From NCBI GenBank assembly GCA_008690995.1, contig VRMN01000001.1, forward strand, positions 806,001 to 870,000: DNA of 64,000 nt. The letters run 5' to 3'. Below, one piece after another: positions 1-6,358 of this stretch. The translations under genes and the position numbers were made by a program. The notes below the pieces were generated by a model, which was given only the letters and a program-made list of their open reading frames with translations, did not search any database and had not been told where the DNA came from. Origin of the DNA: Porphyridium purpureum (taxonomy: Eukaryota > Rhodophyta > Bangiophyceae > Porphyridiales > Porphyridiaceae). Within the stretch, counting starts at the first letter, position 1; each line of letters opens with the position of its first letter.

Positions 1-2930
1 GTCGGCATCAGCATAGCCCAAGACGCTTACGTCACCGACCTTCAATGACGTCATCCGCAAATACTCAAGTGGCTCACGAGGAACCTTCAAGTATTGCATG
101 ACGCGAACCAGGAGTCTCTCAGCTGCGACGTTCCAGCTATCCACATACCGAGCCACCACTCCAACTGCGTAGGAGATATCCGGTCTGACCGTCCTGGCCA
201 ACCACAGCAGCCTCCCAACATGCTCGCGTATTTTCAGATGCCCATGTTCGACTTGAACATCCAATACAGCGTCAGCATTCATCTTCTCGCCTGGTGACTT
301 CACTGCTCGCAGCACCTGCCCAAGCTCTTCTTCAAATTCCTTCACCACCAAGGTTTGGTAGTGATCATGATCCAACGAAAACCGTGTCGCCGACTCCGAG
401 ATCATGAGACCTAGGAACCTTAACGGGGCTCCTTCCGAGAGGACTTCTGGCTCCTTCTCAATGAGGAACTCTGACCTCAACTCTCGAAATATCTCACCCC
501 GATCCTTCTCGGCACACGCGAGCAGGCCATCGTCGACATACAAGGCCAAGAGTGCAACAGATGCACTTCCCGCCATCTTTTTCACGTATACGTTCTTCTC
601 GCCGTGAATCAAATCCCACCCGAACTTTTGAAGTCTTCTGCGGGCATCGATGGAAAAGTCAGACCCGCTTCTTGGTAAGCCATAAAGCGCCCTCCTTAAG
701 CGAACGACAAGTCCATCACCTCCTCCTGGAACGTGACGGGGCAACATGGCAAACGTCGGTGGTCCTGACAAGTCAGCGTGTAAGTACGCCGACGTCACAT
801 CGAACGACACGATTTTCAATCCCAGGATCGCGGCCAAAGCTATCAACATTCTGATTGCAGACAGGCCCGCGGGCACCTCATAGTCAAACACATCCTGAGT
901 GACCTTCCCTGAGGCATCCCAAATCCTATTTCCACCAGCAACAAGCCGACACTTGACCTTGCGAAACTCCTCCGGAAGCTCAGCGAACTTCAATCCGAAT
1001 ATAAAGTGTGTCCGCACAAATCGTGCGCCTGGGACCTTGAGAGCTTCTTCCCTTGAAATAGGTTGCTCATCCCATACCTTGAATCGAATCATCAAGTCCA
1101 CTTCTTTTTGCATGGCTTCTCTTCCAGCCGAAGAAGCCAGAGCTTGGCTCGTCTGCAACAAAGTTGTCAAGTTCAATTGCGGTGTTTCTGGAGCAACTCC
1201 TGCGCGTTGCTTCCAATTTTCCTCCGAGAGGCCCATATTATGGGCCCGGGCTCGCACATCCTTTCCGTTTCTTGAATTGCGGAACACTGCCTTGTATTCT
1301 TGCAGAGTTCTTTCCCACTTCCCCCAGCCAAAGAGCCGTAAGCCATCCATGATGGCCTGATCCTCTTCCCGGCTCCAAGCTACACTGGGTTTTCGTTTCC
1401 CCCTTCTTCCAATAGGTAGGGGAACGTCCTCCTCCAAGTTCCCGGACACACGCGCCTCGGCCGTATTCGTAGGCAACACCATAGTCTCTTGACTATCCGG
1501 TTCTTCCTGCCTAGAGTGAAAGTCGATTTCACCCTCACGTGCCGAGACCTCCTCGTCATCCTTTGTTTCCAAAGTCCGCATTGGAAACACTTCAGGGAAC
1601 GCCTTGAAGTCCTGAGTGCGAGTCAGCCTCGGTACCGCACTCGTCCACTCCTCCTGAGGAAGGACCCAGATTGCCAGCGGATGCTCCGCAACTCCAACAA
1701 GGACTCCAATCTTTCCTCTGGGTGCATACTTGTTCTCAGGTTGATCATTCTTGAACACCACCTTGCATCCAAATGGTACTGCTACCTTCCCCCGCTTCCA
1801 TCTCTCACCGTACCTCATTTCATACGGAGACTTCCCAGACCTCTTGTCTGGGTGCAGCCGATTGAACATGAAGACGAAATGCTGAGCGGCATGCAAAAAC
1901 CACCGCTTTCCCAGCCCAGACTGCAGGAGATTTGCTCGTACCCCCTGATTCAAAGTATGATGGAAACGTTCCTGTTCAGCGTGGCTATTTGGTCTATGTG
2001 GGACGCCAATCTCATGCTTCACGAGATTCTCCCGTACCAAATTGCTCACATTTCCCCTGAACTCGTTTCCATCATCTGTCCTCAGTACCTTTGGCCATCC
2101 TCGCCCGGCTTGCACGCTTGTCCAAGCTTCAGCAACCGCCGTATGCGTTTTGGCTCTCAATCCTGCCAGTGTGGCCCACCTCGTCGCTCTATCGATGTGC
2201 GTCAGTATGTACTTTGCTCCATCGGTGGCTTCCACGTTACGTCCGGGCTCCACCAGGTCGATCCCAACTTCGTCATTGAACGACAAAGTGGACAAGTCCT
2301 TCTCCAGCCTTCTTGCTGGTCGGCTCTTGATCTTGGCCACAACACACGTCTCACAATCATCCCGCATCGGCATGTGAGTCAACGCATGTTCCATCCCGGC
2401 CATCTTTCCTTCGACCTCTTCACTGGCACTCTCCTCTTCTCCATCGCACGCTTGATTTCCGCTTGACTCGGAAAGAGCGTCCACGACATTCACCATCGCA
2501 CAATCTTCCACATTTTTAAGTCCCAAGTCCATCGAACCCCTCTGCCAATCAATCCTCGGGTTCACGCGACTCAGCCAGTCCCACCCGAGAATTGCATCCA
2601 TTTGCAGAGGCCCGACATAAAACTTGACCGGCCCTTTCCAGAACCCAAGATCAACATGCTGCAACACCGGGCCATGCACTAAGACACTTTGCCCACCCGC
2701 AAGCTTGACCATTCCGTTCTCGCGCCCTTCAAATCTGCCGACAAAGCGAGATCCAAGAAAATTGTGCGATGCTCCGCTGTCCACCAGAAATTGGACAGAC
2801 TCGCCATCTAAAGTTCCACGCTTGTAGAGCAACCTCGACGCCGCATCAGCGCGCCAGACCTCACCTACAAAGCCCATCCCGGGAGGTTCCGTTCCCCTCG
2901 AGTGCACCTCCCAACTTCTCCCTCGAGGTT
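1..2930 (-). CDS. pol: copia Pol polyprotein: protease, integrase, Myb/SANT-like segment, RT, RNase H (partial)
   Basis: The minus-strand frame is open to the left edge. Domains in order: aspartic protease with VDSGASHN (about 2781-2758) and a following ILGWDWL; an H-H-C-C zinc region (about 2390-2340); an integrase core with its acidic residues (GIDLV about 2260, RTDDGNEF about 2080, AEQERF about 1975); SPYEMRYG at about 1825. Next comes a Myb/SANT-like segment (about 1380-1207). RT follows, with FDVTSAYL (about 800), LYGLPRSG (about 680) and the catalytic YVDD (540-529). Last is the start of RNase H, GYADAD, at the window edge. The frame overlaps the end of gag. It is partial only because the window ends. 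Confidence 0.88.
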
Positions 2931-3887
2931 TTAGTTTTCCGGGCCTCCCGCCAAGTGCCCATTCCGCTTTGGGCAATTGGGTTTGATGTGGCCGCGCTGC
3001 CCGCAATGGTAGCATCTGACTTTGCCCACGTCCGCATGCTTGCGCTTCTCCGGCTGGCGTTTCTCCACGACGCCCAAATCCATTGGCGCCGTCCCGGCAT
3101 ACGACGAGCTGTTCCGGTAGTTTGGACTAGAGGCGCCATGAAAAGCCTCCCTCATGTCTCCTCCAAACCTACCAACCTGCTCCGCAGCCAACGCCGCCCT
3201 CAGCGACTCTTCCAGCGTCTTCGTGTCCTGACGCGCCACCTCAAGGCGAAGCTTCTCCTTCAGGCCGAGAGTGAAGATGGTGTTGAGCTCGGCATCCGTC
3301 ACACTATCCACTGACAGGGCCACCATCCTCAGGCGCTGCTCAAACTCAGCAACAGTCATCTTGCCCTGCTTCAGCTGATACAAGTTCGTTCGAGCAGTCA
3401 GGTATGCCTGCGGCGGCTCAAATGCCGTCCGCACGAAGTTCGCGAACGCATTCCAACCGGACTCGGCCAGTGCCATCCTCTGTTCCTCAGGGCGAGCTGC
3501 CCACAACAGCGCGGCATCCTTCTCAAAGAAGCGCGACGCTACGATCACCTTCTGAGACTCCAGCGCTCCAGCTGGCATGCACATGTCCAAGTCTTGCTTC
3601 ATCCTCGACAACCACTCGTTCACAACGAGTTTGTCGCGCTGTCCGTCGTATTTCCTCAAGCTGCGTCCAATCAGCGATGCAACGGTCCTTTCCGTTTCGC
3701 CGGGACCAGCTGACACAGATGCCTGATGCATCACATTCTGCAGCATCTCCTGCAAGAGGCGATTTCCCTCCTGCAGCTGCACAATCATCATTTCTTGTCC
3801 TCCGATACGAGCATGAAGCTGATTGAAAGCTTCAATCCACGACGCGCCGCCCTGCAGGCCCTGCACGTCCATTCCCTCAGAATCCAT
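2931..3887 (-). CDS. gag: copia Gag (nucleocapsid) protein, 318 aa
   Basis: This frame begins with ATG shortly after the primer-binding site. It contains a helical capsid-like region (about residues 20-230, with a Trp-Leu-Ser-Arg-Met motif and an ARTNLYQLKQG-like stretch as in copia/UBN2-type Gag). Near the C terminus is one CCHC zinc knuckle (Cys-x2-Cys-x4-His-x4-Cys, about residues 289-302) for RNA binding. Its end overlaps the pol frame, which lies in a different (-1) register. That is the geometry expected if Pol is made by ribosomal frameshifting, as many retroelements do. No gag-like host gene is implied. Confidence 0.85.
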   Translation of the reverse strand: MDSEGMDVQGLQGGASWIEAFNQLHARIGGQEMMIVQLQEGNRLLQEMLQNVMHQASVSAGPGETERTVASLIGRSLRKYDGQRDKLVVNEWLSRMKQDLDMCMPAGALESQKVIVASRFFEKDAALLWAARPEEQRMALAESGWNAFANFVRTAFEPPQAYLTARTNLYQLKQGKMTVAEFEQRLRMVALSVDSVTDAELNTIFTLGLKEKLRLEVARQDTKTLEESLRAALAAEQVGRFGGDMREAFHGASSPNYRNSSSYAGTAPMDLGVVEKRQPEKRKHADVGKVRCYHCGQRGHIKPNCPKRNGHLAGGPEN

Positions 3888-3894
3888 CTTCGCC

Positions 3895-3909
3895 GATGCG
3901 ATGATACCA
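3895..3909 (-). other. Primer-binding site of the copia element
   Basis: On the minus strand TGGTATCATCGCATC lies just upstream of the gag start. The first eight bases match TGGTATCA, the Met-tRNA-type primer-binding site common in copia elements. The remainder would be complementary to the host's own tRNA 3' end, which is not available here to compare. Confidence 0.6.
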
Positions 3910-3911
3910 CT

Positions 3912-4705
3912 TTAAATTCTCGCACGCTTGATGATGACAAGCGCACGAGCTCGGATGACACAACCCTTCTCAGATGACCGAACCCCAGCAACACGACGCA
4001 CACGGCACAGAGAACACAACCACACGACGCACACAACACAGACGACGAATACCCGGGGCGTGGAAAATCCAACGTATAGGGCCTCTACTATTGCCTTTCG
4101 CGTCGGCACAGACAGCACCGGTCTCGACAGGGGCAGGGTGTCGTAACGGACAAAGCCGCCGTCTGCCTTCAGTGCTCCAAGAGCACCGAAACCCCCCAGA
4201 CACGATGTGCTGCTGGCTCTGCTACACAGGCTCAGCAAAAGGCCCCACGTCTTCCGACGACCACGCCCAGGCACCCGACACCAAAGAACAACTCTTCCTT
4301 TATTCTCTGTGTCGTACTCCCTTGCCTCTTCTTCTTCCGCTCTAAAGAAAATCCGGGGAACCGCACAGGCCCGCGCCCATTATATACCCCGCCGTCCTTG
4401 CTGTCCTTGACGCGGAAGGGAGAAATTATTTCTCCCAAAAGGCTGGGCTTTCCTCCGTTCGTTCCACGGAACGAAGCCACAGCCAGCCACGTCAGCAAGC
4501 GGCTCAATGGGTGCCGGCCGGCCGCCAAGCGGCTCCTGCTTCCCTCGGACACGCGACTCCGGCTCCTCGGGGCGAAAGACAACAATGCACAAAACCAGAG
4601 GTACAGGGTAAAAAACCACGCGGGCGAAAAAGCCCCTGTACCTCAAAGAATTCCGAGACGCCGTACCTCTAGGTGTACACCCAGGGCGTCTCTCGGACCG
4701 GAACA
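3912..4705 (-). repeat. 5' LTR of the copia element (approximate bounds)
   Basis: The outer end is placed where the minus strand begins TGTTCCGG, a typical TG start. The inner end is approximate, next to the primer-binding site at about 3909. Reading the minus strand, a TATA box (TATATAAT, 4386-4379) is followed about 80 bases later by an AATAAA signal (4304-4299). This is the U3/R arrangement expected of an LTR. The partner LTR is outside the window, so neither the ends nor a target-site duplication can be verified. Confidence 0.6.
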
Positions 4706-4770
4706 CTTTTAATCCATGCGGAAACCGAATTTGGCAAAAGGGTATCGGAATCTGATGGACGTGCGTGGTG

Positions 4771-4861: not shown

Positions 4862-6358
4862 ATGAAGTCGTATACAAAGACGCTGCTGGAGCATTGCAGG
4901 AAGTACCTGACGCCGGTTGTGCTGGTGGTGGTGTTTGTGCTGTACCGGTTGTACGGCGCGCATCAGCAGGTGCGCCACGACGCGCGATGTTATGAGGAGT
5001 GGCACACGCGCTTCACGTTGGACGAGCTGCGCGAGTTTGAGACGCTCGAATGGACCGCGGAGCCGCTCCCTTCAGGGCTTGGTGGAAAGGGAAAGATGAA
5101 GGCGCAGCACGATGGAGGCGACGGCGTTCAGCCCGTTCGGAACCCGTTTGCGACATTGGCCGTGTGTGGCTTCCTCATGGTGGATAAGGCGTACGATCCG
5201 CAGGTGCTCTCGCAGATCAACGCGACCGTGCGGCCCTTGGTCGATGATCCGACCCGCTTTGAGCCGCTCAAAAACACCGCCGGGCTCCGCGGCAAGCGGG
5301 TCGAGTTCAGCGTGCCTCATGAAGCGCCGTTCCTGCAAGCCATTCCGCCACAGCCCGTGATGGACTTTGTGCGCGATTTCGTGTCTGTGTTGGGTGACGG
5401 CCGCGCACTTCGCCAGAAGGAAACCACCGATCCGGAGATGTTTGCCGCTAAATACGACGCTGGTCGCTTTCCGGCGCTCGAGCAATTGACGGTGATTCTG
5501 GCAGAGGCACGCGAGGACACGGATCAGGGCTTACACCCGGATGCTAGCTTCAGATACGGCATGAAAATCCACGTGCCTCTGGTGGACGTGACCGAAGAAA
5601 TGGGACCCGTGCGCATCTACCCGCAATGTCTTGATGACGCGGACGGCGTATTCAATCGCCTCTACGATTGGTACTCATCGCTTTTGAATGTGAGGCCCTC
5701 AGTGCTGGGTACTGTGCCAGTTGGCACAGCGGTCATTTACCAACAGTTTCTTCTTCATCAGGGAACGGGGAACAAGAGCCCGCTGGACCGACCCATTTTG
5801 GATTTCAGCCTGCTCCCCGCACATTACATCAGGGAGCACAACTACACCAAGGAGTTTCCGCAGGATATTTTGCCGCACCTGAAGAAATATCGCCAGGATT
5901 GGCACGCGCGTTTAGTGAATGGCCTGGCTGACCCCAGTGGCCGCCACAAGAAGTTGTTTGAGAGCCTGGTCTCTCGCGACTACTCAATTCGCCCAGAGGA
6001 TCAAAAGCCTCATGCCTGGATTGACGCAGGAAAGCGCAAGAGTTTTTGTGGCCAGAACGTAGACTTGGTGTCGTGCCTCAATCAAACGATCTTAACGCCA
6101 AAGATCATTGCCCTAATCTGCGGTTTCCTATTGATCACAGCAGTTCGTTCGGCGCAGCGCGACTGGGAAGAGGCGTTCACGAAGGAGAAGCGCGCAGCCG
6201 CCGCGGCTGCAACGGCGCCTGCGTTGACCAAGAAGAAAACCAAAGTGAAGAAGACAGCCACGAATGACTCGGTAAAAGGTGTCGTGGCGGGCAAAGGCGG
6301 AGGGCCGCTGGAGGCGGTGGATGATACAGTTTCGGAAGATCAGAAAAAGGCACAGTAA
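4862..6358 (+). CDS. Membrane-anchored phytanoyl-CoA dioxygenase (PhyH)-like 2OG-Fe(II) oxygenase, 498 aa
   Basis: The core resembles PhyH-type dioxygenases, which use Fe(II) and 2-oxoglutarate to hydroxylate substrates. The iron ligands are visible as His225-x-Asp227 (GLHPDASF) and a distal His299 (LLHQGTGN). Arg310 eleven residues later (DRPIL) is the expected 2-oxoglutarate anchor. A hydrophobic segment at residues 16-31 and another near residues 418-435 suggest anchoring at both ends, and the C-terminal tail is Lys/Ala rich. Characterised PhyH proteins are about 300-340 aa and soluble, so the anchors are unusual. The substrate cannot be told. The start is the first ATG. The 3' end is convergent with the cyclopropane synthase gene, 147 bases away. 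Confidence 0.72.
   Translation: MKSYTKTLLEHCRKYLTPVVLVVVFVLYRLYGAHQQVRHDARCYEEWHTRFTLDELREFETLEWTAEPLPSGLGGKGKMKAQHDGGDGVQPVRNPFATLAVCGFLMVDKAYDPQVLSQINATVRPLVDDPTRFEPLKNTAGLRGKRVEFSVPHEAPFLQAIPPQPVMDFVRDFVSVLGDGRALRQKETTDPEMFAAKYDAGRFPALEQLTVILAEAREDTDQGLHPDASFRYGMKIHVPLVDVTEEMGPVRIYPQCLDDADGVFNRLYDWYSSLLNVRPSVLGTVPVGTAVIYQQFLLHQGTGNKSPLDRPILDFSLLPAHYIREHNYTKEFPQDILPHLKKYRQDWHARLVNGLADPSGRHKKLFESLVSRDYSIRPEDQKPHAWIDAGKRKSFCGQNVDLVSCLNQTILTPKIIALICGFLLITAVRSAQRDWEEAFTKEKRAAAAAATAPALTKKKTKVKKTATNDSVKGVVAGKGGGPLEAVDDTVSEDQKKAQ

Follow-up and report, generated by a model that had tools for sequence, protein, structure and literature searches.

Results

Organization of the locus

The stretch of Porphyridium purpureum DNA analysed here (the window) comprises 64 kb of a 5.7-Mb contig, within a genome totalling 22.2 Mb. 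At its left edge, on the minus strand, lies a young LTR retrotransposon that we assigned to a family designated A (Table 1). Its integrase is encoded upstream of an RVT_2 reverse transcriptase (RT) in one frame, which is the copia order. Self-comparison gave 99.75% identity between the two LTRs across 811 bp, and beyond the left-hand target-site duplication (TSD) the sequence reads TTCAA, followed by ACTGTAC (C43:804700-804706, coordinates by arithmetic). An ORF at 4862-6358, which by eye has the look of a membrane-anchored dioxygenase, begins about 140 bp from this copy and reads away from it, so that the element lies upstream of the ORF.

Table 1. Features of the family A copy at the left edge of the window.
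Feature	Position in window	Strand	Evidence and remarks
pol open frame (protease, integrase, Myb, RT)	1..3126, continuing left beyond the window	-	1042-aa frame
Reverse transcriptase RVT_2, residues 702-932	331..1023	-	59.9 bits
Myb/SANT (telobox-like) domain in pol, residues 583-640	1207..1380	-	Pfam PF00249, 28.2 bits; PDB matches; family alignment
Integrase SH3-like domain PF25597, residues 451-482, upstream of Myb	1681..1776	-	Weak: 14.7 bits, cutoff 27
Integrase core PF00665, residues 301-379	1990..2226	-	22.3 bits, under the Pfam cutoff of 32.6
Aspartic protease PF13650, residues 104-187	2566..2817	-	25.3 bits, cutoff 24.3
gag ORF, start taken as first in-frame ATG; Ty3-type capsid, CCHC zinc knuckle	2931..3887	-	
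5′ LTR	3910..4718	-	Self-comparison; ends from copy comparison
TSD TTCCG, 5 bp	4719..4723	-	Second TSD copy left of the window
3′ LTR	Left of the window, about L009 1717-2526	-	

The SH3-like integrase domain is matched more clearly in families E and F than in family A. In the Pfam search, the family A gag gave no match to the copia-type gag model PF14223 and matched Retrotrans_gag and Ty3_capsid instead; a Ty3-type capsid (PF19259) and Retrotrans_gag, in place of a copia gag, are likewise found in the copia-order families C and H. The gag and pol frames of family A overlap at 2931-3126 in different frames, so that frameshifting or splicing would be needed, whereas family C has a single long gag-pol frame. 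The stretch behind the 5′ LTR (3895-3909) opens with TGGTATCA and then diverges; we take this start to resemble initiator-tRNA primer sites.

The complete 601-bp query stretch of family A occurs at 17 places in the genome, and an 18th copy is split by another element. No fewer than two of these 17 places hold an incomplete copy (that on C45 has a shortened 3′ LTR, and that on C8 a broken 5′ part). Sixteen family A rows had both flanks; an identical 5-bp TSD was found in 14 of these, including L011, whose altered LTR end was placed by hand, a TSD with a one-base difference was found in one, and the remaining row (L025) had unlike ends. An element of Ty3/gypsy order (L026, C18:502003-508228), 6,226 bp long with identical 291-bp LTRs and the TSD TTCTT, sits in a family A copy immediately upstream of Myb. 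Five copies (L010, L019, L020, L021 and L024), some of them close to contig ends, have a common flanking repeat, which suggests duplicated regions.

A Myb-type segment between integrase and reverse transcriptase

The initial annotation had proposed a telobox-type Myb/SANT segment in the open pol frame between integrase and RT. The residues quoted for it are present on the minus strand at that place, and the proposed profile search bore out the Myb assignment, in that the 58-residue segment scored 28.2 bits (E=2.1e-6) against PF00249 (Myb_DNA-binding), the curated cutoff of which is 24.4. A 97-residue version of the segment also exceeded the cutoff (27.3 bits), and when the entire 1042-residue frame was scanned the score fell slightly below it (22.6 bits, E=1.2e-4). 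Among structures in the PDB, human TRF1 was the top match in a search with the single family A sequence (E=0.0014), and a profile built from six families matched c-Myb (1.6e-10) and telomeric trf1 (1.1e-7). The AlphaFold2 models were of low confidence (mean pLDDT 47 and 52, from runs of 3 and 8 sequences); the first contained three helices and the second had the first two helices merged, and a Foldseek search with the first, low-confidence model returned no match.

Telobox and TRF1-type Mybs figure among the nearest relatives in the PDB and likewise in the host genome, where the best matches beyond family A were L090 (38% identity) and L089 (34%), followed by family G; L090 and L089 are apparently non-transposon frames with the motifs VDIKDR and VDLKDR. 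The helix-3 motif of telobox proteins is of the VDVKDKWRT kind, Trp included, but it was not found in family A, where the corresponding sequence is KDVRARAHNM, without Trp. Across six families W3 and W23 of the segment are invariant, and the presumed third Trp position is Ala in all six. Many family A copies lie near contig ends, and we considered telomere targeting as the sense of the telobox-like similarity; we rejected it, because assemblies break at repeats and the recurrent motif at the insertion sites is ACTGTAC.

Conservation within the genome, which the initial annotation had named as a check, was evident: the segment is found in the 17 copies and in the split 18th, with 86-100% protein identity across the aligned part. 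In the segment pN/pS was 0.19, from 4 synonymous and 3 nonsynonymous changes, compared with 0.59 in the linker preceding it, 0.17 in the integrase and 0.13 in RT, all from 17 copies and small counts. Two copies, L024 and L025, carry a one-base insertion at the first codon of Myb or just before it (pol nucleotides 1749 and 1729, respectively), which splits pol into two frames and is possibly an assembly error.

Related families with and without the segment

A search of the RNase H region, in which 150 of the 202 candidate matches were scored, revealed at least ten copia-order families in the genome (A-J). Families C, D, E, F and G have an alignable Myb segment between integrase and RT, that of family E being divergent, and yet their pol stretches are merely 32-42% identical to that of family A. 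When the segments of these six families were scanned alone (E up to 1), five, including that of family A, matched PF00249. Families H and I also have an alignable segment at this place, with a weak Pfam match in H (12.6 bits) and none in I, and a Myb-like segment was recognised by eye in the partial sequence of family J.

Family B, which is 64-70% identical to family A in pol, has no Myb at the integrase-RT position. At the place of A's linker and Myb it has about 58 residues with a coiled-coil look (judged by eye, with weak Pfam coiled-coil matches). An RT tree of 13 rows, two of them distant outgroups, joined A and B with support of 100/100 inside the Porphyridium clade, and the absence of Myb from family B is therefore most simply explained as a loss of the domain. 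All near relatives in protein-database searches (>40% identity) were from Porphyridium purpureum or were the window itself, and the other matches were distant copia or gypsy proteins of 25-31% identity; scoring was in part confined to candidates sharing most words, with length limits. Among these distant relatives, no Myb was seen on reading P0007, P0009 and P0018, in the Pfam search of P0018, or in the domain lists of P0007, P0009, P0010 and P0011.

Might the segment be a captured domain with no function in integration? The moderate single-sequence scores and the low-confidence structure models would fit such an origin, as would its absence from family B, which is as abundant as family A or more so. 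We nevertheless think this explanation very improbable, given that diverged families have an alignable segment at the corresponding place and that pN/pS is low, albeit from few changes.

Insertion sites and the position of ACTGTAC

We read flanking sequences in 21 rows for family A, 21 for B, 7 for C, 3 for D and 8 for E, together with six one-sided flanks of families H and I. The distance d is the start of the motif counted outward from the element end, with both sides considered. ACTGTAC and the offsets for families A and C were chosen post hoc, with the flanks already inspected; families D, H and I were examined only once d=7 was known from family C.

In family A, exact ACTGTAC starts at d=11 in six of the 21 rows, and eight have at most one mismatch, the other 13 having two or more. 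The subset with both flanks and a TSD gave similar counts (n=15; five exact, seven with at most one mismatch). The mean mismatch to the motif at d=11 was 2.24, compared with 4.69 ± 0.49 across offsets 1-44. In family C the motif is located at d=7, being exact in 4/7 rows and within one mismatch in 6/7, and in family D it is exact at the same distance in 2/3, giving six of ten sites for the two families jointly. Half of the six 3′ flanks of families H and I also have exact ACTGTAC at d=7 (ends without TSD check). When unselected flanks were pooled, information peaked at bases 13-16 in family A and at bases 7-13 in C and D, with no comparable peak in family B.

No row of family B has the motif at d=11 or d=7 (0/21), and the motif nonetheless lies within 60 bp in 13 of them, a per-position density 38 times that of the genome. 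The flanks of family E showed no motif in any of the eight rows, and hence none at either distance (0/8; only three of the eight with a matching TSD). For family J a register had been predicted, and the prediction failed on the 3′ side, the side that was read: among 31 LTR matches, 11 of them extending on from pol, ACTGTAC followed three LTRs, at d=15, 24 and 3, and so at no fixed distance.

Position permutations (20,000), which keep the motif count of each flank and account for the choice of offset, never reached the top exact offset of family A (six rows); the peak of family C was reached in 4, that of D in 327, and the top offset of B (two rows) in 17,560. With motif and offset picked post hoc, the binomial probabilities against the local motif density of family B were 3.8e-8 for A, 3.6e-7 for C and 3.6e-4 for D, and Fisher tests against B, subject to the same choice, gave p=0.010 for A and p=0.0003 for C and D together.

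Several rows were dropped before counting. For family A these were L019 and L024 (flanks identical to those of L010), L021 (a chimera of two sites) and two truncated LTRs on C13; for family B, C3:741 (3′ flank equal to that of C3:59796) and the copy on C40 (inside an A LTR). Also dropped were C14:46036 (flanks equal to those of C14:490407), C17:144910 (equal to C27:123133) and L129 (divergent, with an unclear LTR end). Among the 21 rows of family A, five sites are one-sided and another has unlike ends. Site ends were set by judgement for L011 (altered LTR end), for C40:337403, which was read from the 3′ flank alone with one base supplied from the match, and for L013 and L017. The last two are insertions 11 bp apart in a run of tandem LTRs (C43:4071-4088 kb), and in both the motif is absent from base 11. 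The 21 rows of family B were taken from a larger set of copies, seven being 3′ only. Two of the eight rows of family E probably represent the opposite ends of a single copy, and C40:298492 has on its 3′ side what resembles internal sequence. Of the H/I ends, that of L136 was taken from family H, the shared stretch extending one base past it, and that of L138 was set by alignment.

ACTGTAC in the host genome

On both strands of the genome ACTGTAC occurs 6,320 times, twofold more often than the reversed control (3,088). The window holds 15 occurrences against 3.1 expected; 11 lie outside the kept ORFs (≥200 codons), a compartment of 24% of its bases, and eight lie within 400 bp upstream of the start of a kept ORF (11% of bases). 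Because it is found mostly outside ORFs and upstream of their starts in the window, ACTGTAC is probably a promoter element. The titles and abstract openings available for a small part of the matching papers mention no known element of this sequence. A likely promoter element of P. purpureum is thus indicated, in a species that, according to an excerpt of one paper, is used for transgene expression (PMC10866757).

This distribution also raises the question of whether open promoter chromatin is the mere target and the spacing a by-product of a motif that is common there. The upstream position of most motifs in the window is consistent with that explanation, and so is the enrichment of the motif around the insertion sites of all four families A-D. 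A preference for promoters alone, however, yields no single-base register, and the family A peak did not arise in the permutations that kept the number of motifs per flank; we therefore give this explanation very little credence.

Discussion

How might a fixed distance between ACTGTAC and the insertion point have arisen? A single-base register requires a DNA-reading part that is fixed relative to the strand-transfer complex. We propose a Myb-type DNA-binding function for the segment, which would read ACTGTAC and fix the insertion base through its link to the integrase, and we put the probability of this reading at about two in three. In a clade of copia-order LTR retrotransposons, the Myb at the C-terminal side of the integrase would bind the 7-bp motif, and the integrase link would bring about strand transfer at a fixed distance, made up of the TSD and a further 5 bp in family A, or a further 1 bp in families C, D, H and I. 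The intasome would thus insert about one DNA turn from the motif in family A and beside it in the others, and the motif could lie on either side of the insertion, as a symmetric intasome would give. We infer that the Myb of family A itself touches ACTGTAC, that it remains attached to the integrase once the enzyme is mature, and that the element benefits from landing at promoters. We also lean towards the broader proposal that, in this red-algal copia-order clade, each element's own Myb reads a host promoter element with a family-specific single-base register, and that loss of the domain in one lineage relaxed the precision to the neighbourhood of the motif.

The initial annotation had suggested that a module at this position could steer integration. 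The support for this is correlative, namely the fixed spacing of ACTGTAC in families A, C, D, H and I and the lack of a register in the Myb-less family B, but the relationship is not universal, in that families E and J carry Myb-like segments without a register. Because family B is drawn to the neighbourhood of the motif without a Myb, the regional preference appears not to require the domain, and the results from B, J and E limit the role of Myb as register-setter to some families. The situation is best seen as one in which Myb sets the register in some families and a second factor draws A-D to promoter-like regions.

The same observations bear on the alternative that a host factor at ACTGTAC, for example a host Myb or telobox protein, recruits and positions the intasome, the Myb of pol having another role such as a chromatin or protein contact. 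The attraction of family B to the motif without a Myb, the absence of a register in J and E despite their Myb-like segments, and the telobox-like Mybs in the apparently non-transposon frames L089 and L090 are all compatible with it, and there is a precedent in the integrase C-termini of yeast Ty1 and Ty5, which, as described in part of PMC5911963, contact host factors. We regard this alternative as rather unlikely, since the absence of Myb in family B coincides with the absence of the register, and since two registers among Myb-bearing families are more easily explained by a reader inside the element. Our analysis thus suggests that the element carries its own address-reader for the choice of insertion site; if this is true, it is an LTR retrotransposon whose insertion point is taken from the DNA sequence by the element itself.

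Comparison with known systems

GalEa-like Ty1/copia elements, CoPorcru1/2, have been reported from Porphyridium cruentum in an excerpt of PMC3587641. Family A has in common with Ty1/copia elements (Pseudoviridae) the order protease-integrase-RT, the RVT_2 reverse transcriptase, a 5-bp TSD and LTRs. It differs from them in the Ty3-type capsid domain of gag and in the Myb between integrase and RT, and the LTRs of families A-D lack TG..CA ends.

Targeting parts on integrases are already known, and to our knowledge LTR retrotransposons and retroviruses are, in the known cases, aimed via host-protein contacts or histone marks. In Ty5 and Ty1, the C-terminal part of the integrase is described as targeting insertion via Sir4 and RNA polymerase III, respectively (PMC5911963, in part). 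In family A, too, the targeting contact would lie C-terminally on a copia integrase; Ty1 and Ty5 contact host proteins, whereas family A has a domain of a DNA-binding type and shows a base-pair register relative to a DNA motif.

The chromodomain is a histone reader, and the initial annotation had compared the segment with the chromodomains of some gypsy elements. This comparison fits the position and purpose of the segment but not its apparent target, which here is a DNA sequence. Excerpts on chromoviruses describe Ty3/gypsy elements with a chromodomain (PMC3605345, PMC2864245). What family A has in common with them is an additional integrase domain thought to aim integration; in chromoviruses this is a chromodomain in a gypsy element, and in family A it is a Myb in a copia order together with a DNA motif. 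The Pfam search of the part of pol within the window gave no chromodomain match.

The non-LTR retrotransposon R2 reads rDNA with a Myb and zinc fingers and inserts by target-primed reverse transcription. In R2, as proposed for family A, a Myb-type DNA reader encoded by the element sets the insertion site; family A differs in being an LTR element with an integrase and in having a dispersed 7-bp motif as its target. With the telobox and TRF Mybs, family A shares the single-sequence match to human TRF1 and the host relatives with VDLKDR or VDIKDR, and it differs from them in its Trp-less helix 3 and in the motif at its sites. The titles and abstract openings of the literature surveyed describe neither a Myb in the pol of an LTR retrotransposon nor an LTR element that encodes its own sequence-reading domain and inserts with a single-base register. 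Because natural families with, with changed and without Myb occur together in one small genome, the link between domain, motif and insertion base is directly testable.
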